DNA of 64,000 bases from Aurelia coerulea (Eukaryota; Cnidaria; Scyphozoa; Semaeostomeae; Ulmaridae): positions 8,415,501-8,479,500 of the forward strand of contig CM076959.1 of NCBI GenBank assembly GCA_039566865.1. Reading direction: 5' to 3'. Positions 3,715 through 64,000 of the stretch are shown here, piece by piece (within the stretch, counting starts at the first letter, position 1; every line of letters starts with the position of its first letter). The notes beneath the pieces were generated by a model, which worked only from the letters and a program-made list of their open reading frames with translations, ran no database searches and was not told the DNA's origin. Position numbers and translations under genes: made by a program.

Positions 3715-3733
3715 ATATATATATATATATATA
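3715..3733. repeat. (AT)n tract at PLE left edge
   Basis: Alternating TA dinucleotides abut the left end of the Penelope-like element. A similar tract lies just beyond its right end (7258-7274). Confidence 0.7.
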
Positions 3734-3893
3734 AAAGGTACTAGGAGAAAAACGGACGCAAAAAACAGACAGATTTTTCAGCACACTGAGGCCTTTCAAA
3801 CTTACGTTATCATCAGAATGTGACTAACTGTAGAGCTAGAGCGTTTTTACGATTTATAAACTAAATAGAGGATTACCGACAGGAAATATAAGA

Positions 3894-4520
3894 TTATTGG
3901 TTCATTATAGCGTGTCCTCTGTTGAAAAGTTTGCTTTCGTATTCTAAGAGTGATTTATTGTCCTTAAGTTTCACAAATGCGTAAATTTTGAAGAAAGGTT
4001 CTTTAAGGTTTTTATTAGATTTTCCGCAGTTATGTACATGTTTTGGAAAATTGCAAGAAGACACTCCGTTTCTTGATTCAGATATGTGATTGTTCATTCT
4101 TTGACGTAAATTCGTTGTTTGGCCGATGTAGTTCATTTGACCATCACATAAATTACACGAGAGAAAATATATGATGTTTTTGCTATTGCAGGTAATTTCT
4201 GATTTGATATCCCATATGGTTCCATTTGCAGTTTTGAAATTCTTCACTGGCTGTAGATATAAACGGCATAATTTGCATTGTGCTTTATTGCATAATTTAA
4301 TTCCGGGTTCTTGTCTCACAAATGGGATGGATGTAAATTTCGCATTCGTTAGAATCGAAGTAAGGTTTGGAGGTTGCTTTAAGGCGAGGATTGGTGTTGT
4401 ATTGTTAAATTTTCTCTTTGTGTCCGGGTCTTGAATGCCTTTGAAAAGGTTCGAAATGGTCTTGATAACATGGCTATGATTTAAACTAGGGTAAAATGTC
4501 GTGACAAGTGGTATAATATC
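3894..4520 (-). pseudogene. antisense copy of the PLE endonuclease region in the left inverted arm
   Basis: Read on the - strand, this gives the same protein as the last 209 residues of the PLE ORF, including the Cys-rich knuckle and the GIY-YIG domain. It has no RT domain and no start of its own; the first residues beyond 4520 are unrelated antisense sequence. Confidence 0.85.
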
Positions 4521-5670: not shown

Positions 5671-7068
5671 TATGACGTCGTCAGTTTATATACAAGCATC
5701 CCACACGCACTCGGTTTAGAGGCTATTGATTATTGGATTAATGCTAGACCTGATCTTGTACCAAATCGTTTTCCCGCCTCCTTTATACTTGAAGCCACCA
5801 AGATTGTACTTCCAAATAACAATTTCATGTTTAACGACAGAATGTTTACCCAAACATCAGGCACCGCCATGGGAACAAAGTTTGCACCACCGTATGCATG
5901 TTTAACTATGGGCTACCTCGAGGAAGCCATCCTTTTTCCAAAGATCTTAAGAAAATACTTCGACGAAAATTCATGTTCGTACCTACAAAATAACTACCTC
6001 CGGTACATGGATGATGGTTTTATAATCTTACCTGTAAATATAAACGCGGACCTCTTTAAAACAGCCTTGAACGAACTCCACCCTGCTATCACGTTTACAA
6101 TGGAGGAGGGGAATTTTTCAAAACATACAGAATCGCTAAATTTCCTTGATGTAGAAGTTATCCTCTCAAATGGATCACTAATCACAACAGACATTTTTTA
6201 CAAAGACACAAATCCACATGATTATCTTAATTTCCAAAGTGCACATCCAAGACACATTAAAGATACTATACCATATAATCTAGCAAAAAGAATTATAGTT
6301 TTCGTTACAGATGAAGAGAGAGTTAAATTTCGTTTACAGGAATTAAAAAACTGGCTTTTGAATTGCAACTATCCCAACTCCTTAATTGATCAAGCATTCC
6401 ACAAAGCAAAATTACAAGGTCCTGCACCGAATAAAACAAGAGATATTATACCACTTGTCACGACATTTTACCCAAGTTTAAATCATAGCCATGTTATCAA
6501 GACCATTTCGAACCTTTTCAAAGGCATTCAAGACCCGGACACAAAGAGAAAATTTAACAATACAACACCAATCCTCGCCTTAAAGCAACCTCCAAACCTT
6601 ACTTCGATTCTAACGAATGCGAAATTTACATCCATCCCATTTGTGAGACAAGAACCCGGAATTAAATTATGCAATAAAGCACAATGCAAATTATGCCGTT
6701 TATATCTACAGCCAGTGAAGAATTTCAAAACTGCAAATGGAACCATATGGGATATCAAATCAGAAATTACCTGCAATAGCAAAAACATCATATATTTTCT
6801 CTCGTGTAATTTATGTGATGGTCAAATGAACTACATCGGCCAAACAACGAATTTACGTCAAAGAATGAACAATCACATATCTGAATCAAGAAACGGAGTG
6901 TCTTCTTGCAATTTTCCAAAACATGTACATAACTGCGGAAAATCTAATAAAAACCTTAAAGAACCTTTCTTCAAAATTTACGCATTTGTGAAACTTAAGG
7001 ACAATAAATCACTCTTAGAATACGAAAGCAAACTTTTCAACAGAGGACACGCTATAATGAACCAATAA
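5671..7068 (+). CDS. PLE RT core plus GIY-YIG endonuclease
   Basis: This frame opens at the motif A sequence YDVVSLYTSIPH (5671 on). Numbering from the ATG at 5827, motif B GTAMGTKFAPPYA is at residues 12-24, the YMDD catalytic box at 60-63, and the Cys-rich knuckle CNKAQCKLC precedes a GIY-YIG domain (IYF near 322-324, YIG at 336-338, then NLRQRMNNH). The RT copies RNA into DNA and the GIY-YIG domain nicks the target. Motifs B, C and the nuclease look intact, but the frameshift upstream of motif A means the copy is probably inactive. Confidence 0.85.
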   Translation, partial: YDVVSLYTSIPHALGLEAIDYWINARPDLVPNRFPASFILEATKIVLPNNNFMFNDRMFTQTSGTAMGTKFAPPYACLTMGYLEEAILFPKILRKYFDENSCSYLQNNYLRYMDDGFIILPVNINADLFKTALNELHPAITFTMEEGNFSKHTESLNFLDVEVILSNGSLITTDIFYKDTNPHDYLNFQSAHPRHIKDTIPYNLAKRIIVFVTDEERVKFRLQELKNWLLNCNYPNSLIDQAFHKAKLQGPAPNKTRDIIPLVTTFYPSLNHSHVIKTISNLFKGIQDPDTKRKFNNTTPILALKQPPNLTSILTNAKFTSIPFVRQEPGIKLCNKAQCKLCRLYLQPVKNFKTANGTIWDIKSEITCNSKNIIYFLSCNLCDGQMNYIGQTTNLRQRMNNHISESRNGVSSCNFPKHVHNCGKSNKNLKEPFFKIYAFVKLKDNKSLLEYESKLFNRGHAIMNQ

Positions 7069-7145
7069 TCTTATATTTCCTGTCGGTAATCCTCTATTTA
7101 GTTTATAAATCGTAAAAACGCTCTAGCTCTACAGTTAGTCACATT

Positions 7146-7168
7146 CTGATGATAACGTAAGTTTGAAA
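7146..7168 (+). ncRNA. possible hammerhead-like core in the PLE terminal repeat
   Basis: CTGATGA (7146-7152), a 3-bp AAC/GTT stem with a GTAA loop, and GAAA (7165-7168) follow the order of a hammerhead ribozyme core. Stem II is short and stems I and III are not evident. PLE terminal repeats are known to carry hammerhead motifs, which is the main support. A mirror copy lies in the left arm. Confidence 0.3.
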
Positions 7169-7275
7169 GGCCTCAGTGTGCTGAAAAATCTGTCTGTTTT
7201 TTGCGTCCGTTTTTCTCCTAGTACCTTTTATTCAGTTTATACTACAGTACCAAGTTTTTATATATATATATATAG

Positions 7276-13936: not shown

Positions 13937-16900
13937 GTATAGAACATAGTGCCCTCTTTCAGTACTTTAATCGTTTTTTCCTTCTTCCACATTTCTCCCT
14001 AGCTTCTGAAGATATTTTTAGGGCACTGACAGCATAGGGTTCAAATCTTTCAAATCTTTAAAAAGGTGGGTGTAAAAGTCTATGATATTTTTCTTTTAAT
14101 TGCATGTCTTGAAAGAATTTTTGAAATTTTGCCTTAAATCTGCCGTTGAAATTGTTTGTTATCTTGATTTTTTTTAAAATGGCGGCAATTTAATGATTTT
14201 TGAAAAAATTGATGGAAAATTTTGAAAATATCTAAATCATCGTAAATCTTAAACCAACAGAGGAAAACTGATGTAACCCTCAAGAAAACAACAGTCTAGG
14301 AAGGTCTAAAATATGGTGGCAAGCAAAAGTCTTTAGCTTTTCTGGTTTAGGATTTAGAAATTTAATGACGTCATAGCCTCAAATTTGATGAATGCTGCCA
14401 TTTTCAAAATAATCAAGATGTCACTAAATTTCCCAGCAAATTTACAGCAAAAACCCCAAGTTCCCTCCAACCCATTTATTTCAAAGAAAAGTATGATAGA
14501 ATTTTACACCGACCTTTTTAAAGATTTGAGCCCTATGTTGGCACTGACAACTTATCAAAGGTATGTCATGGTCCCTCCTCTCAACGTGACCACACCTCGT
14601 GATTCCTTTGGCCTGGAATTACAGAGAGTTAGTGATTCTCCTGAATCGTCGAAGCAGGTTTGACAGAGCCAACGCTCAAGTTTGACATGGCAGATTAAAA
14701 GAAGAAAGAATCATTATAAATTATCCTTATAAAGAATCCTTATTAAGAATCATTGCCAGTTACGGAGACGAAAACCGTTCGACCAGCTATCTTTTATTCT
14801 TGCATTTGCAATTATTAAACAAGCCCAGTCTTAAAGGCGTTGGCGAGCAGATAGTTTTGGTTTCGAGAGATAGCATCTGCATAACGCAACACCAGTAACT
14901 CTAAATTTATTCGTAATATACATTACACGTCTCCTCATACGTTGCAATTTGGACAATAATACGTGTCGGCAAGTCTATTATGTGCCATTTTTCTGACTCA
15001 GTAAGGGAGCAGGAATTTCTGTGCGATGCCAATCTTGTGCCTTACAGTGCCATACGGTAAGCAGACTGAAATAATCTGATACACTAGACTGACACTAGGA
15101 AGCATCTATGTTGATTTTCCATTTCTTATCTTAGCAGGAGATCAAGAGATGAAAAATTATTTGAAAGAGAGTTGCAAGCTGTGATACAACTTTCCAAGAA
15201 GCAATCGCCACAGGTTATTAACATTGATGAAGATGACGCAGGAAGTGTCAGTGTAGGGAACACACAACAAACATCATGTAAGAAATCCAGCTAGTTGTCG
15301 TGTTCCTTTATTTTACCCTTACATTTGAATCGATGAATTTCTGACTGGAAACTTGCAGGCAACTAAGACTTTGGATAAAAATGTTTCGGACCTTTCTATT
15401 GAGAACTTTTAACAGAAATCTTTCGAAAACTGAAAACGGTTCCAGTAAAGTATGGACACAAGTATTAAATTAGCTGCAATTTCTTGAAATTTTTTCACTA
15501 GCACCGCATGCTGACTGGATAGGGTTAATAAAGACATCTGAAAAACGTAATAAACCTTGCTTTTAAATTTTTAGATGATTTTCTCATTCTTTTTAAATGA
15601 GATTCATCGTTCAGTTCAGACAGGTGGGCTTTAGGTTTTTGACAAAAATTATTAACAGATTGTACTTTTTCCTCAGGAATATCTTCCAGCACTCAGCCCT
15701 ACAGTAACAAACTAACCTGATACCATATTGCAAGGTAGTTTTTCTATGTTAGCAAAATATCAGTCTTGCTAGCTGACCGTTTACTATATTGATGAACAGA
15801 TTCCACACACTCAAAGAATGAAAATATAAATGAAACGAAGAAGGAGCGAGTTTATTAAGGTTACTGTACCCCTTCAGGACAAGAAAATGTTTTTTCCTAT
15901 CAATCTTTGGATTTTTAGATAATTGGATACCACACACACCCACCTGCAATTTTGGATAATTTCAATTAGTTTTCCTTTATTTTTCAATGAATTATAAGCA
16001 ATTTAAAGCAACGCCTTTCCAGCCAGGAGCATGCTGGTTACATAACTAAAGGTTAATGATTTCAAGTGTCTCTGATTTCCTTTTGAAAAAAATTTACGGC
16101 TTTGATACCGATTAAACTATTATTAATTCTGCGCTAAATGCATAAAGGGTTACTCTGTTTGCTCTAGTGGCCAGATTAATGTTAATCGTTGACAACAGTG
16201 GAGTTATACGCTAAGAAACTATTTCAGCCCTTTTCTCAAGATTAAATTCTCATTATTATTATTATTATTATCAATTTGTTTTACGTTGGCAACTTACATA
16301 ACTAATTCAAAGCTAATTCAAGCCAACAAATTAAATACATAAATATATATATACATACAAGTAAAACTAGTCAATAAAATTACAAAGTTCAAATCAAATT
16401 ACAATGTTCAAATCAAATTACAAAGTTCATATTAAAAAAGGTGTAAAATCATAGAAAGCCGAGTTGAGGAATGTACTGCCTGCAAAGTCTGCAGTCGCAG
16501 CCTTCATTGGTCCAGTGTTTGATTTTATTCTTAAATTGATGCACAGAATTTGAATCCTTAATTTCCTGAGGAAGAGAGTGCCAAATACGCAGCCCTCTGT
16601 ATCGGATTGTTTCAGTACCATGATTAACTGTATGTACCATAGGAAGTAAGAATGTATTGGTATTTCTCAAATTATATGTGAGACTTCTTTGCAGGAAAAT
16701 TTCGTCCATAAAACTGGGGTTTAAATTATTAGTAGTTTTGAACATTTCAGTCATTAGCAATTGTACATTTTTCTGATGTATTGTTACAGATCTATCTTTT
16801 TCTAATAAGGTTTCAAAGCTGGAAGTATTGTCTTTATACGCAATTCGTAAGGCTCTCTCATGCAGCCTATTGATTTTGTTATTCATCTTTCTGCTATGGA

Positions 16901-25900: not shown

Positions 25901-28900
25901 TGTAGCCTTCGAGACGGGCGCAATACTGGTCTTCGGAAGGCTGCTGGGTCTTTAATTAGAAATTGCAAAAAAATGAAATTTCAAAGAAGGCTGTTCAAAA
26001 GGATGGAGTAGGTATAGTTTCGTAACTGGAGTGTTGAATGGATTCTCAAAGAATAATCTAGAGTAATTTATTTTAGATGAACGTATCAAAGAGACCGCTG
26101 TTGGCTTATCGTTGCATTCAAATGAGAATGAAGAGAAAGATGATGAAAGCGAATACGAGGCTAGCGAAGGAGAACTAGACGAGTCAAATGACGATGACGA
26201 GGATGAAGATGAAGACGATGATGATTTTAATGTAGAAAGTGACGATGAATTCAAAATTTCACCAAAAAAGAGCAAGAAAGTTAAAGAAATGAAAACTACA
26301 GGAAAAGTTAAGGGAAAGCTCAAGAACGTTTCGTCAAACATAGCAATTTCTGCAAAACGAGGTAAATATGTTCTCTTTTCAATTCAGTTAAGTTTATTGA
26401 TTTTAAATTCCACTACATACCAGGTGTCCCAAAAAAAGGTAACAAATTTGGTCGGGGCTAGGGATAAAAGTTTTAAAGTCGAATCGATCCCTCGTATGTT
26501 TGAAGTACTCTTTGATAGTTAACTTGAAGATTGATACCTTGTTTATCGATATTGGTGCATCGAGAGTTGGAATATCAATCTTGTAAGTCCAAATTCGTGT
26601 TCACCTCCAAACCATAGCTTTTAGGTTTTGGCCTAAACTGCAAACGTGCTGGTCAAGGGAATCTCCTCAGTCATAGACTTTTTTGGACAAGGATCCGCCC
26701 TGTTTCAGATTTCTATTAAAAAATTTTCTTAAGACAAGGTTTCTTGCTTAAACTTTCCTATTATCTAGAATATTCCACAACACAGCGCGTTGACAGCGTA
26801 GGCCAAAACCCAAAAGCTCTGGTTTGGAGTTGAAGGCCAATTGGACTTCCAAGATTAACACTTCAACTGTCAGTGCACTAATATAAACAATTGAGGTATC
26901 TACGTTCAAGCTTACTATCAAGGATTATCTTTAAAATTATTTCAGATTGCTTGAAGCTATATTCTTATTGCTACGCCGGATCAAACAGTTACCTTTTTTG
27001 GGACACCCGGTACAAGCATTCTAATAATACACAACTTACAACAATTTAAATAAATTAAAAAGACGATACACATAAAATAAAATAAAAGGAAAACATATGA
27101 TACCAGACGATTTGTAGAAACTATTTATGAATCTACGTGAATATCAATAATCTGCGTTATGTTCAGACGGGAAGGTTTAGAGTTGATGACCAAAAATCGT
27201 GACCAATGGTGACCTTTTTAACTCAGCAGGAACGTTATTCCAGCATTTTGCTCCACAGTAACGTGCCGATTTGAGACCATATTAACTAGCATTTTTCTGT
27301 GGTAGGAATATATCATCTAGAGGCCGAAAAAATGTGTTTCTTCCTGGGAACGGCAAATATTTCGTCCAAACTTCCGGGGAATTTTTTTTCAATTCTACAT
27401 TGATTTAGTGGATTGTAAAGCGTAATTCGTACAAGTTGGTTGTTGGCAGAATATAGTCCAAAAGGTACTTTGTAAAACTTAATACATTCATCAACCATAA
27501 ATTTAAAGGTTTAAAGCTCAACAGAACATGAAACAAATACTTATATTGCATACAAATTTAAGAATGATTGCTAGGTATGTAGCTCAAAATAAGCATGGTA
27601 TTTGTAAGTGAGCAACCCAAAAGCACATAATTATCATGATAAAGATAAACTGCACATACAAATCTAGTTGCCACTTTCTTCCTTCCTTGAAACGAACAGC
27701 ACTAAGCACAAAAATCAACTAAAAAACTCGATGATAGGTTGACCTGGACGAAATCTACTACTTAGAACTACCAATTTTTGTCAAAATTTTGATGCGAGCC
27801 TCTTGGTCAAGATTCTACTTGATTAGAGTTACTGCAGCAATTCAATATTGAATTCTAGATATAGTTTATGACCGCTTCTGGCTCTGCCGTGTTTTGACAA
27901 CGACATAAGATTCAGCTTCTTTTCAAAGAATTTCTTGCAGCCTAAAAATCTTGCAAAAATTTCTTGGAAACAGCATTTCGTGTTGTTCAGGAAAATGTAA
28001 AGCCTAAGGTCTTAAAAGTACAGACTGAGCTTGTGAGGTCTGTGCAGTGAGACGGAAGGATGGCTTTATATTTTCCTGTACAATTACAAAACCGGTTAGT
28101 ATAAGTTTTATTACCTAATAGTTTCTGATTTTGACTTATATCGTTTAGGCAAACGCATTTTTTTACGGTCATGTTCCTCAACTTGATTGTAAATCTCACA
28201 GGCCTAAATCAGTTGCTGTGGTTACAAAAATGCGTCCTTGTATGTATCATATTATACAAGACTACGGGTAAACCACATGAAATGTGCGATTAACCAGTGG
28301 GATTGGTGGTATTCTTGTATTGCCTCCTTTTTTAAATGTAAAGCTGGTAATAAATGGTAGTATCATTTACGTAGTTGCATATTTCGGTTTCATTCGTCAG
28401 AAGAAATATGTCATCAATATAAATGTTGAAAAGAAGAGACCCTAACACCGAACCTTGTGGCACACTTAAATTAGTTTCTTTCCATATGCTAAATGAAGCA
28501 TTAATCTTTATCCTAGGTCTTCTGTTCGAATAATAGCGGTGAATAAGCTATTAGGCTAATGGAGCATATCATCTATGAAGCAAGATAATTTTCAATATCG
28601 ATGCTTTGATATTCGGAGAATAGTATTCTTTGAAATACCGTACATGTTCTTTTCTTTTTTCTTGCTTATCCAATACATAACATTGATCGCATTAATTTGA
28701 ATTTTTGTATTATCCTCAGATGTCATTGCTAAAACAAAGATTGCTATGCAGCCAACTGCTGCGAAAATTAGTTCCTCAACATTAGAAGCTTCGACGCCAA
28801 AGATTCGATCGAATGCTTGCGCAAAACGTGGCTTGAAACCTTCTTCTGGTTCACTGGCACGGGTATGCCCTTCTCAGACAAATACTGGTAAGTACCTGGG

Positions 28901-56604: not shown

Positions 56605-58047
56605 ATTTCATATTTCATATTAAATTTTTATATTTCATATTTAATTCTTTTAAGGAGGGTTGCCCTTCAGCAGAAGCTGGTTTTCAAGGGGCCCTCCGAT
56701 AAAAACAATAATTAAAATCTACAGAAACAAAGTAAAAAGCTATTAATTAAATCAAACTATAAAACCTTATTTACAATATTCAAAACCTATGTACAATAAT
56801 GTTTAAAATTTAAAATCATGCGAAAGAAAAAGAAGCCTGTACCTAAATAGTCTTGAAACTCTTCAGTGAGGCTGCCTGCTTAGACTCGGCTGAGAGGCTA
56901 TTCCACAGTTTTGCACCTCTGTAGGAGAAACATCTCTGGCCATTATTTGACCTTTTCTTGGGTAACCTAAGGTCGGTTCCTGTATTACGAAGGCTGTAGG
57001 ATGAACACTGCGAATTTCGTGTGAAGAGGTCACACAGGTATTGTGGAGCCAGCTCATTTAAGGACTTGAAGACCATTGTCTGAGACTCATAAGCTACATG
57101 TTCGTCAATGGTCTTCCATCCCAGCTCTTCGATAAGGGGTCTGCTTGGGGCATCGAAGCTGCTATGCGTTACAATCCTAGCAGCACGTTTTTGAAGTTTT
57201 TGCAACTGATTAATTTCAGTTGAACCAGCACAGCCCCAAACAGAACAACAGTATCGAAAGTGGGGCTCAACAATACCTGTGTAGAGAGTTAGCAAAGTTT
57301 CTTGTGGGAGAAAAGACTTGGCATGTCTCAAAAAACCAACTGCCCTGGAGACCTTGCTGGAAACTGCCTTGATTTGTTCTTTCCAATCCAAGGAGCAGTC
57401 AATTTGCACGCCAAGGTATTTTTTCTTTTTGACTACTTCAAGCTCATTATCGCGAATTTTCAGTTCCAAGTCTTTATTTTGACTTTTGAGAATGTTGTGT
57501 TTCTGCTTAGTAGAAATAAGCATGGAATGAGTTTTCGCAACATTCAGGGAAAGCTTGTTGCCTTGTAACCAAGTGTCCAGCTTCCTAAGGTCACTGTTAA
57601 TAGCCTCATTCAGCCGAGTCAAATCATGAGACTGGTAGCATAAACTGGTGTCATCAGCATACATGCAAACGGTGGAATCTTGGACAGCTTGTGGGAGATC
57701 ATTGATGTAGATGAGGAAGAGAAGAGGCCCAAGACATGAACCTTGCGGAACGCCAACTTCTATGTCCCCAACTTTTGAATGAACCCCATTTACCCTACAA
57801 AATTGTTTCCGGCTGGAAAGGTAGGATTTAAACCACGAGAGTTCACGTTGCTGTACACCGTAAAGCTCGAGCTTTTTGCAGAGGATATTATGATCTACAG
57901 TGTCAAATGCCTTTTTGAGGTCAATGAACACTAAACCCACAAGCCTACCAAGATCCAATCCATTGTACCAGTCGTCAGTATTTTTAAGTAAGCATGTTAC
58001 TGTTGAATGAAGGCGTAAAAAGCCGGATTGGCCAGAAACGAAGCCTA
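56605..58047 (-). mobile_element. LINE family B, 5'-truncated copy 3
   Basis: The 3' UTR has CTTTTAAGGAGGGTTGCCCTTCAG. Coding continues upstream of the first ATG to about 58045. Inserted just upstream of the kinase gene. Confidence 0.8.
56843..57958 (-). pseudogene. LINE family B RT
   Basis: Contains VFIDLKKAFDTVDH (motif A), GVPQGSCLGPLLFLIYINDL (motif B), CMYADDTSLC (motif C) and the thumb, C-terminus intact. Uninterrupted; only the fingers and endonuclease are missing through 5' truncation. Confidence 0.85.
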
Positions 58048-58434: not shown

Positions 58435-58581
58435 ATGTTTCGGCCACCGCAGCTACCGACAGCTATCAATAAAGCGCATGATGCTCAGTCATACAAAGGA
58501 ATACCGTGTTTCAAGTGGCAAGAATTTGATAGCAAAATACTCATTGGTTCAGGTTCCTATGGAGAGGTGTATCGTGGCTCT
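58435..58581 (+). pseudogene. protein kinase-like gene, N-terminal part (split by LINE)
   Basis: Starts at ATG 58435 (first in-frame Met) and encodes 49 residues including the glycine-rich loop GSGSYGEVYRG that positions ATP. It is cut after Ser49 (TCT, 58579-58581) by a LINE. Continuation is in frame at 60853. The gene would be a Ser/Thr-type protein kinase; see the next kinase entry for the catalytic residues. Confidence 0.85.
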
Positions 58582-60852
58582 TATCATTATTATTATTATT
58601 ATCAATTTCTTTACCGTTAGATACATAAAAAATATAGCTAAAAGTAATCAGCTAATTAATTCCAACGTTAGTTAAAATTTTAAAATACAAATGTTACATC
58701 AGAAAAAAGGGGATAAAATATTTACAATTCATCGAAAGTATACAGTATACAGTATAAAGGCATAAAAGTGTATAAAAGCAGATATTCAAATATTATCATC
58801 ATAAAAAGCCCAAGTTCGGAATAAAAACGCAGCATAATTTACATGGACAATTTTCTCCGTTCCATCTGAATTTCGTATAGTTGGTGGTAACGTTTGCCAC
58901 AGCTGTGGACCTTTAAATCAGATGCTTTCTGTCCCGTTGTTGACAGATCTCACCCTAGGTTGGAAGAATTCGTTATTGGTACGCAAATTGTAATGACTTT
59001 CATTTTCGCTGAAAGTTTCGTGCATGAATGAAGGGCTCAGGTTATTTTTGTTTTGTACATCTCAGTCATAAGTAACTGCAAGTTCTTTGCATGAATCGTA
59101 ACGGCACAGTCCTTCTCTAATAGCTCACTGTAAGTAGATTCAGTATCCTTATAAGTAATTCTCAGAGCCCTTTCCTGTATTTTGTTAATTTTTTGGCTGA
59201 GCTGCCTGCTGTGAAACATCCAGATTAAAGGACAGTATTGAAACTGACTGGTAATAAATGCCCTCATGAGTGTTCTTAGTTTGCTCTGATCCATGTAAGG
59301 GGATATGCGAGCAAGTGCATAAAGTTTATTGCTAGCCTTTTGACACAATTTGGAAACATGATTACCGAAGGAAAGTTTGCTATCAATTTGAATTCCGAGT
59401 AGCTTCTCTTCGGAGCTATTTACAACATCAGCATTTCCAATCCTAACAGTAACAGGATCATCACACCTCTGCCCAAGAACCAAAAGATGGCATTTATCTG
59501 CATTTAATGTCATAAAGTTGTCGGTAAACCATTCTAAAGCTACACTACAGTCATTTTCAAGCCTATGAGTTATATTGCCCAGGTTCTTATCGCAGGCATA
59601 GATTGTAGTATCATCTGCATAATTACATATATCCGAGTTTTGAATGAAGAGTAGAAGATCATTAATGTATATGTTGAATAACAGAGGCCCTAAGACTGAC
59701 CCCTGAGGAAGACCGCGTGTGACGCTTTTCCAAGAACTAAATGACCCATTTACTTTGACTCTTTGTTGTCTATTTGTGAGGTAATCATTAATTAGTGCCA
59801 ATGCTTCGCAAGAGAAACCGTAGGCGTGCAATTTTGCAATCAAAAGATCGTGTCTGATGCAATCAAATGCCTTGGACAGATCCATCAATACAGCCCCTGC
59901 TTTACCACCTTCATCAAGGCTAATTTTGAATTTTTCTAAGAGCCGTACGAGAGCATGCTGGGCACTGTAACCTTTTCGAAAACCACAGAGGAGTGATGAT
60001 AAAAAGGGTGTAATATAAGCAACTATCTGTTTATCCATTATTCTTTCAAACATCTTTGAGACCGTAGGTAGAACGCTAATTGGCCTAAAGTTGGTCCTAG
60101 AGTTGGTTGGTCCATTCTTGGGAAGAGATGTGACATCCACACACTTTAGTTCATCAGGAAAGGACGAATTTTCTATGCAATCATTAAATATTTTCGTCAG
60201 AGGTTCTACACATACATCAGAATTGGATTTAAGAATTTTAGGAGGAATATTTTTGTGCGTTGTAGCTTTTTTAGGATTTAGATTCCTAACCTCTTTGTCT
60301 ACAGTATCAGGGGTAACTTTCTGAAAAGTAAAGGAACCACCATCTTGAAAGCGACCTTTAGTTTTCAGAATGCTAGGATGATTGGAAAACTTATGTACGG
60401 CCTCATCAATAGGATCTGTGATTCCTTCTGTTGCATTTTCGTAATTAGAGTTTTCATTTATGCCAAGGGAATCCGTCACAGTGACGAAAAATTCATTCAT
60501 AGTTTCTGCTACCTCAACATCGTTGGAAATAATGGTTTCATCTTCAATCAACACTATTTTATTCTTAGATTGTGATTTGTCCGAGAAAAAAGGTTTCACA
60601 GTTTTCCAGAATTTCTTATTATCAGTGACAAGTGAGATGTCTAGGTTATTGTAATAATTTCTTTTTTCCTTCCGAAATAACTTAACACAAGAGTTTCGTT
60701 GCTTGCGAAATTTGTTCCAATTTTCGGCAGTTCGATCTTCGTTGAATTTATTACGTAATCTAGAACGTAGCATGGTCGCTTTACGCAGAGCACGAGTCAT
60801 AAATGGTTTATCATTTGCCCGGACATATTTTTTCTTAACAGGAGCATGTTTA
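58582..60852 (-). mobile_element. LINE family A, copy 3, inserted in the kinase
   Basis: The 3' end is (ATT)n at 58585-58602 and the family A UTR. It is flanked by TCT on both sides (58579-58581, 60853-60855), a 3-bp duplication or microhomology. Insert 2271 bp. Confidence 0.85.
59037..60844 (-). pseudogene. LINE family A ORF2, RT
   Basis: Open from LDKHAPVKKKYV (end of the endonuclease-RT linker) through LMDLSKAFDCIRHD (motif A), GLPQGSVLGPLLFNIYINDL (motif B; usual GVPQG) and NYADDTTIY (motif C). It ends early at TAA near 59037 within the thumb; family A copy 1 continues there for about 100 more codons, so a frameshift or stop is present. Endonuclease missing. Confidence 0.85.
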
Positions 60853-62328
60853 TCTAAAACTCAAAAACAGTTGTTCGTTGTTAAGGTGTTAAACGATACA
60901 GAGATGAAAGATTTCATCAAAGAAGTTCGATTTCACAACAATCTAAAGGATCCCAACCTCGTTGGATTCAAAGCAATGTGCCTTTCGAATAAAGCAATAA
61001 TGCTTGAGTATGTTTGTTTCGATCTTCAAATGTTTTGTGGCGACGGGAAGGTATCAAGTCTTGATGCATTACTAAAGGAGCTTCACAGTGCCCGATGTAA
61101 AGGATTTGAGCATCTCATACCCTGCATTGCAAAGCATATCGTGAAAGGTTTGTCGTACCTACATGCAAGGGGAGTAGCACATCGAGACCTAAAACCTGCC
61201 AATGTGCCTGTGAGCAACCAGCATCTTATTGGCCTGCCCCCCACCCATCAAAACGCCAAGTGGAAAAGCAATCCATGTGTCGCCAAACTTTCTGACTTTG
61301 GCGAACGTTGGGGTAAAATATCGCAGTCAGTCGATGCCGCATGCTCCCAAACTGCGAACGTTTACAAGGGAACACCAGCATTCATGGCTCCCGAGGTGAT
61401 AGACCCACTGCAACGACCTGCTCACATGGGAGAGGAGGAATTAAAGCTCGCCGACTTGTGGAGCATGGGCATGCTATTTTATTGCCTTCTAAATCCAAGC
61501 AACAAGGCACCATATTTGTTGGAAGGAAAGAGCAGTGGAATCAAACCGGGACAATGGCAACCCTTTATCAAGAATAAGATATCCAAAGGAATCAAACCAA
61601 TTCACGATCCAGAATATAGTGCTGTTCGTGCGTCCGTATGGGTAAATATAGAGGAAGTCTTTGAAAGGTGCATCATCAAAGAGCCAAACCAACGCGTGTC
61701 ATTGTCATTAGTTACAGAAATTTTGAATGAAGTTGATACATCAGAGAGTATCCCACTTTCCCTCCACCAAGAAAGTTCGTTCATAAGAGCCCACGACGAA
61801 TTCGTCAGTGGATTACAGTTCAACGACAATGATGTTTCATTTGTGCCTCCAAAGGATGATGGAAGGAATGCCTGTGTTTTCTTATGCTTAAAGATATGCG
61901 AAAAGATATTGGCAACAGATAAGAATTTAGAAGACTTGGCAACTGATAAATCTGCAATCGAGAACATCATTCAAGAATTTCCAAAAGAGATTAATGACGA
62001 AAGAATGAAAGAGGAGCCATACACTGTGGAAGATGCTTACAAACTTGTGCGTGACAACAAAAGCATTTTGCCATTGAGATTGGAGCAAAAGGGCAAAGAC
62101 GAAATGGTGTTTTCTGATGCTGGTAGAAGGGAATTGATCAATATGCTCGATATACTGAGGGGATCAGCAATCATCACAGTTCCACCGTATTCATTTGTCG
62201 TTGCAAGAGAAAGTGAAAGAGTTTTCTTGGTTGACACACACTATGTAGCGGAAGACTTAGGAGGTAATGGTAATGCCATATTGAAAGTATTTTTAAATGC
62301 AGACAGCGCTGCTAAATGGATCTGGAAG
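60853..62328 (+). pseudogene. protein kinase-like gene, catalytic core and C-terminal domain (3' cut by LINE)
   Basis: Resumes at the same Ser codon as 58579, frame preserved. Numbering from the frame start at 60703, it has K61 of VVKV, E74 of helix C, HRDLKPAN at 160-167, DFG at 198-200, and GTPAFMAPE at 223-231, so every core kinase motif is present. A second region follows with a Cys (C391 in GRNACVFLC) and, 120 residues on, VDTH (510-513). This spacing recalls Cys/His peptidase-like folds, but that is only a guess. The frame is lost after KWIWK near 62328, where a second LINE begins. No stop lies before that point. Confidence 0.8.
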
Positions 62329-64000
62329 TTGTTGTTGTTGTATCTCTATTTTACATCGATTGAAAAAAAATCATCTAGTCTACTATGTACATATGTACAT
62401 GGAAACTAATCAAAATCGATGGATACAGTAATTAAATTAAAATAAATACATTTTTTTTAACGATTTGTACATTATTTACAGTAAAACGACAGCGGCATTG
62501 CATTTGCACGTGGGGCCATCCCATTGTGATATTAACCTTTTGAAAATATTAAGGCTTTCAGCCGATTTTAGCTCATTTGGTAAGCAATTCCAAATCTGCG
62601 GTCCTAAGAACTTGAGACTGCGAGCACCGAAAGTAACCTGGTTTGGTCTGTAATGAGTAAGGTTATTAGGAATTCGCGATGAATAATTAGAGGATCTAAC
62701 TTGAAAAATATCTTTCATGAAGGATGGATTCAGACCATTTAGAGTCTTGAACATTTCTATGGAGATAGCTCTAAGTCGGTAAACATGCATGGTGCATCGT
62801 TGTGATTTCAGTAGAAGGTCATTATATGAACTGACATGATCATTATGAAGTAACCTAAGTGCACGTCCTTGTACCTTCTCAATCTTATGCATTGATTTAG
62901 CTGAACAAAAATGCCATACTAAAGGACAGTAATTGAAATTAGAATAAACAAAGCTCTGAACAAGGACTTCTCTCGCATCAAAACCAATATAAGCTCGAAG
63001 CCTCTTTAGGACATTAAGTTGAGTTGCAGCTTTTCTACAAAGTACTGCGATGTGTGGATCAAAGTTTAGTTTATAGTCTAGTTGAATCCCGAGAAGTTTG
63101 ACTGAATCTTCAGACATGATTGTTTTTCCTTGAATACTTATTTTCTCACCACTGGTAGTTGTCTGGTCTTTTTTAATTAACAGTGCATGAAACTTTGATG
63201 GATTTGCAATCAGATGGTTTTCCTTTAACCAATCTAGTGCAACGCCTGCTACTGCCTCTAAGGCTCGCACCAAATCTGGTAGAGTCCCAGAGAAACAAGC
63301 AAGCGTGTTGTCGTCGGCATAATTATATAGCGTTGCCTGTTTAATAAATAGAAAAAGATCATTTATATATACATTAAAAAGAATAGGACCTAACACCGAG
63401 CCTTGGGGGACCCCAGATAAGATTGTTTGAAAGGAACTGTATGTATTGTTTATCCTCACGGATTGCTCACGCCGTTTAAGATATGAATAGATTAGTACCA
63501 AGGCATTTTCATCCACACCGTACGCATTCAGCTTCGCAATCAGCAGATCGTGTGGGATGCAATCAAATGCTTTTGACAAGCCCATCAATAAAGCACCTAC
63601 AATGTAATTATTGTCAACTTTGGTCTTCCAGTCTTCGAGGAGTCTTATCAAAACGTGCTGCATACCGTATGCTTTCCTATATGCGCCTATGAAAACCGAG
63701 AGCGTAGTATCAAGATAAACAACTAATTGCTGTTTCATGACTTTTTCATAGATTTTAGAGAATGTATTTAAAACACTGACAGGACGAAAATTTTTCTCAA
63801 ATGTGCGATTTGCTTCACCCTTATCCAAAGGGCATACTGCTGCACGCTTTCCTTTATCTGGAAACCTATGACTTTGTAAGCAGCTGTTTATTGCAAAGGT
63901 TAAGGGAGCGGTAAGTTCATCTGCAGCTAAATGCACTAGTTTTGGCGGAATTTGATCTTCGCCGGTAGATTTTTTTCCGTCCAAGGATCTCAGTAAAGCC
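62329..64000 (-). mobile_element. LINE family D, 3' part (5' beyond window)
   Basis: The 3' end abuts the kinase at a (GTT)n/(CAA)n tract near 62330. The element continues past the window end. Confidence 0.8.
62476..64000 (-). pseudogene. LINE family D ORF2, RT
   Basis: RT with FRPVSVLNTFSKIYEKV, GVPQGSVLGPILFNVYINDL (motif B), NYADDNTLA (motif C) and a Cys-containing C-terminus (CKCNA). Motif A reads LLMGLSKAFDC: the Asp that usually precedes LSKAFD is Gly. In LINE RTs this is a metal-binding aspartate, so the enzyme is predicted dead. The frame is otherwise open to the window edge. Confidence 0.85.

Follow-up and report, generated by a model that had tools for sequence, protein, structure and literature searches.

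The window analysed here comprises 64,000 nucleotides of Aurelia coerulea (assembly GCA_039566865.1, contig CM076959.1, positions 8,415,501 to 8,479,500). Towards its right end lies a gene that encodes a protein kinase followed by a viral-tegument-like deubiquitinase (VTD)-like domain. Its reading frame is interrupted by two antisense long interspersed nuclear elements (LINEs): LINE 1 separates the glycine-rich loop from the catalytic lysine, and LINE 2, which lies from about 62329 onwards, breaks the frame close to where the VTD-like domain ends. An initial annotation had described the first of these insertions; the second was absent from it. The features of the locus are the following (coordinates in the window, strand, content).

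58435..58586, plus: 5' part of the kinase frame, M...IGSGSYGEVYRGSY and the CA of the next codon, running through the shared TCA
58584..58586, plus: left copy of TCA, a possible 3-base target duplication or a unit of the LINE tail
58587..60860, minus: LINE 1, a 5'-truncated antisense retrotransposon without long terminal repeats (non-LTR), its 3' end a TTA run and its edges placed to within 0-3 bases
60772..60860, plus: in-frame ATG within LINE 1, opening a possible chimeric frame without the glycine loop, open to 62409
60826..60841, plus: strongest acceptor-like site (tattttttcttaacag), out of phase with the best donor-like site, GAG/GTGTAT at 58567
60853..60855, plus: TCT initially taken as the right repeat, internal to the LINE
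60861..60863, plus: right copy of TCA
60861..62328, plus: 3' part of the frame, QKQLFVVKV..., HRD, DFG and APE, then the VTD-like domain
61756..62328, plus: VTD-like domain, with the Cys of NAC (61867) and the Asp-x-His of VDTH (62230-62241)
62329..64000, minus: LINE 2, antisense, with a GTT-run end, extending past the window
56849..58024, minus: antisense LINE fragment upstream, adjoining the 5' flank of the gene

The kinase and its VTD-like domain

The frame that starts at 58435 reads MFRPPQLP...IGSGSYGEVYRGS and reaches a stop at 58618, inside the insert. Its beginning is similar to those of the related proteins P0003, P0007, P0175, P0184 and P0187 (pattern MF[RK].P), and 49 codons extend from the ATG to the TCT at 58579-58581, as the initial annotation had it. 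The catalytic motifs announced there are also present in the resumed frame (VVKV at 60877, HRD at 61180, DFG at 61294 and APE at 61387), which matches the Pfam family Pkinase with an E value of 2.6e-25, domain and motifs together being those of a protein kinase. The window kinase shares the glycine loop, the lysine, HRD, DFG and APE with eukaryotic protein kinases in general, but it has P after HRDLKPxN[VI], a position that is L in 31 of 31 relatives. ULK1 is its best match both among PDB profiles and by Foldseek (E 3.7e-24). However, the identity is just 23-24%, and the assignment to a known kinase family is therefore withheld.

About 190 further residues follow the kinase motifs before LINE 2 is reached. 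The domain that they form has the papain-like VTD fold, with a Cys and an Asp-x-His motif at the positions listed above, and is probably a ubiquitin-cutting enzyme, that is, a putative deubiquitinase. According to the main text of PMC9741609, Asp-x-His is found in the VTD family but is also common to UFSP2 and ATG4, so this motif alone is not decisive for the VTD identity. Comparison of the VTD part with PDB by sequence returned two odd hits, both on designed Tako8 chains and with no stretch passing alone, and no match to the VTD family. In contrast to the VTD family of PMC9741609, the VTD-like domain of the window is C-terminal to a protein kinase. The main text of that paper has 0 occurrences of the word kinase. 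Such a pairing in one animal gene is unusual, and literature searches on kinase-transposase or kinase-VTD fusions found no paper describing them. A family of proteins in which a protein kinase is combined with a VTD-like deubiquitinase domain matters more than the split itself, which is routine LINE damage.

LINE 1 and the site of its insertion

The initial annotation had recognised the insert as an antisense, 5'-truncated LINE, and this is borne out by several features. The reverse transcriptase of LINE 1 occupies 59037-60860 on the minus strand (RVT_1, E 7.3e-34), with relatives of up to 92% identity. The endonuclease (PF14529, PF03372) that lies upstream in the full-length relatives P0055 and P0057 is missing from the truncated copy. 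The plus-strand start of the insert is a TTA run (58581-58604), a simple-repeat 3' tail similar to the tails of the window copies at 16248 and 48442. Across the insert there are 38 stops in the frame of the gene.

The exact junction differs from the one first described, in which a 3-base TCT repeat bounded the LINE and the kinase frame resumed 2271 bp later. TCT is indeed found at both places, but the right one belongs to the LINE. In tblastn searches with the LINE relatives P0055, P0059 and P0060, homology ends at 60860. All eight aligned LINE relatives (P0055-P0062) read LDKH, as LDKHAP in seven and LDKHDP in P0061, and the preceding residue is V in six and L in two. Because the VLDKHAP of the window copy matches these conserved relatives up to 60860, TCTAAAAC (60853-60860) is assigned to the LINE. 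When the gene is joined at TCA instead, it reads GSYQKQLFVVKV and aligns without a gap to P0002 (GMYQKQPVVLKV). The TCA join also scores higher than the TCT join against profiles of 11 relatives (440.1 versus 434.7 bits, +5.4), of four (476.1 versus 466.6, +9.5) and of two (514.5 versus 506.2, +8.3); P0013, which is without the region, was excluded. In pairwise comparisons it is higher in nine of the 11 relatives. TCT as the junction, and with it a TCT duplication, was rejected on these grounds, since LINE homology reaches 60860 and TCA gives the better alignment. The insertion thus adds about 2277 bp, i.e., the 2274 bp of the LINE and the shared TCA, and an empty allele would read GGCTCTTATCAAAAACAG.

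TCA flanks LINE 1 on both sides. However, TCA is likewise found beyond the TTA run in the copy at 16248, and for this reason the flanking TCA of LINE 1 may belong to the LINE tail. It may also be a 3-base duplication, the empty site being identical in both cases. The match calls for caution against inferring a duplication from so short a repeat.

The relatives of the kinase agree with a gene that is unbroken at this site. Of 31 chosen relatives, 28 cover it with 10-16 residues, and the six nearest of these (P0175, P0002, P0003, P0184, P0186 and P0187) have 10 residues each, the same number as the joined window gene; the remaining three (P0183, P0181 and P0013) begin downstream and have no bearing on the site. 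A natural intron at this codon had been named beforehand as the observation that would speak against a LINE insertion into the kinase frame. Neither such an intron nor a long insert was seen in the 28 covering relatives. Of these, 13 come from contigs above 50 kb; they may nevertheless be spliced gene models, so that the comparison is suggestive only. The same agreement makes it very improbable that the LINE or the kinase halves were misjoined in assembly: the region is rich in LINEs, where assemblers can fail, but the empty site fits the relatives to the codon, which a real insertion predicts and a random join does not.

Two LINEs in one frame: function and age

LINE 2 belongs to another family (42% identity to LINE 1 over 417 residues) and all of its 507 visible codons are open. 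At its edge (about 62329) the relatives P0175, P0176, P0177, P0179 and P0181 continue with RL. In the whole window, 11 reverse-transcriptase-like stretches cover 14,337 of the 64,000 bases, and two LINE insertions in one gene are therefore no great surprise.

LINE insertion proceeds by target-primed reverse transcription. The two insertions, the revised junction and the domain composition are shown by the sequence; we infer the mechanism of insertion, the order of events and the loss of function as follows. A LINE would have copied itself into a kinase-VTD gene that is continuous at the site in relatives, leaving an antisense copy, shortened at its 5' end, at GGCTCTTA/TCAAAAACAG, after the glycine-rich loop and before the catalytic lysine. 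Another LINE, from a different family, would have inserted in antisense orientation close to the end of this frame. Known gene disruptions by LINEs share the 5' truncation, the 3' simple-repeat tail, the short or missing target duplication and the clean empty site, and no feature distinguishes the present case from them; two LINEs in one frame are notable but unsurprising at such a LINE density. If unspliced, the locus could yield only a chimeric kinase that lacks the glycine loop or a stub of 61 residues, cut off by the stop at 58618, and for this reason the gene hit by the two LINEs is most likely a disabled copy.

Several observations weigh against this interpretation. The kinase frame and the VTD frame are both open once the insertions are disregarded. 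There is no clear sign of relaxed selection in the aligned kinase frame: no excess of decay was found, the window departing from two of the 48 columns conserved at 90%, which is mid-range among 32 sequences, and from eight of 105 columns in its near clade, the fourth highest of eight. The TCA join scores lower than the TCT join with two of the 11 relatives (P0008 and P0012). Finally, a strong acceptor-like site at 60841 lies 20 bases before the junction.

This last site bears on the idea that splicing removes the LINE as a new intron and that the gene still functions. The frame is open on both sides of LINE 1, and a scan with generic consensus weights, untrained for this host, gave 68 in-frame open pairs. 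Their best score, 13.2 for 58553/60841, was reached in 12 of 300 LINE shuffles. However, this pair cuts out the third glycine of the loop. Pairs that leave the loop whole reach 10.9 and 10.7 and bring in residues encoded by the LINE; in the shuffles, the best score over all pairs averages 9.4. An acceptor of the strength of that at 60841 occurs in 25 of 300 shuffled LINEs, and a rescue by splicing would need LINE 2 to be tolerated too. We consider such an intron unlikely, and a disabled copy remains the preferred reading.

The acceptor-like site at 60826-60841 is the antisense of the conserved KHAPVKKK stretch of the LINE. If this antisense acceptor were general, the family of LINE 1 could be prone to exonisation.

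Regarding age, the absence of any decay in the kinase frame had been taken to imply a recent event, a conclusion that the present data do not support. Two conserved kinase residues are altered, namely the P in the column that is L in all 31 relatives and an R where 28 of 31 have S; both changes could harm catalytic activity. LINE 1 itself carries three lesions, all within roughly the final 250 bases of its coding part: a -1 frameshift (the exact base lost being our reading of the sequence), a nonsense codon and a deletion that removes 11-12 codons and alters the frame. Some of them could be sequencing errors or damage at insertion. Under equal decay, finding all three lesions in the LINE has a P of 0.18 and a clean kinase a P of 0.09 by Poisson. 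Neither value is significant, and so the age is not readable from the distribution of lesions. An insertion that is still polymorphic, with an intact allele in the population, would be compatible with a kinase frame that is open and with the 507 open codons visible in LINE 2, both of which allow a young age; the three lesions of LINE 1 speak against a very fresh copy, and we give this explanation only a small chance.

P0175 and other features of the window

The relative P0175 has about 500 residues beyond the VTD domain (residues about 550-1045), the end of which may resemble a MULE-type transposase. It is possible, though less likely than not, that the kinase-VTD gene is carried as cargo by a group of related animal DNA transposons. 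P0175 would then be a fusion of kinase, VTD domain and transposase, and the window would contain a dead element hit by LINEs and not a host gene. The kinase and the deubiquitinase might then shield transposition proteins. If mobile, this would be an unusual transposon with its own signalling enzymes.

A 288-residue piece of the P0175 tail matched no Pfam family, and the tail found no useful solved structure, no viral relative and nothing significant within the window (best E 4.7). The whole of P0175 showed, beside the kinase, sub-threshold extras only. When terminal repeats of a DNA transposon were looked for by the gene, the 5' flank had no long repeat elsewhere in the window, the best being of 22 bases. 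Relatives in bacterial contigs were set aside as generic kinases according to their tables, with identities of at most 31% among the best 80 of 451. Those in viral contigs (17 loci) were, by their table, likewise generic kinases, with at most 36% identity except for one 27-residue piece at 56%.

Elsewhere, Rfam gave no match in the 64,000-base window. An acidic frame at 26067-26522 on the plus strand has a weak match, below the cut-off, to the YL1 nuclear protein (E 0.00049). An inverted repeat of 790 bases with 99.9% identity (3731-4520 and 6442-7231) overlaps GIY-YIG frames on opposite strands, and is presumably a Penelope-like element.
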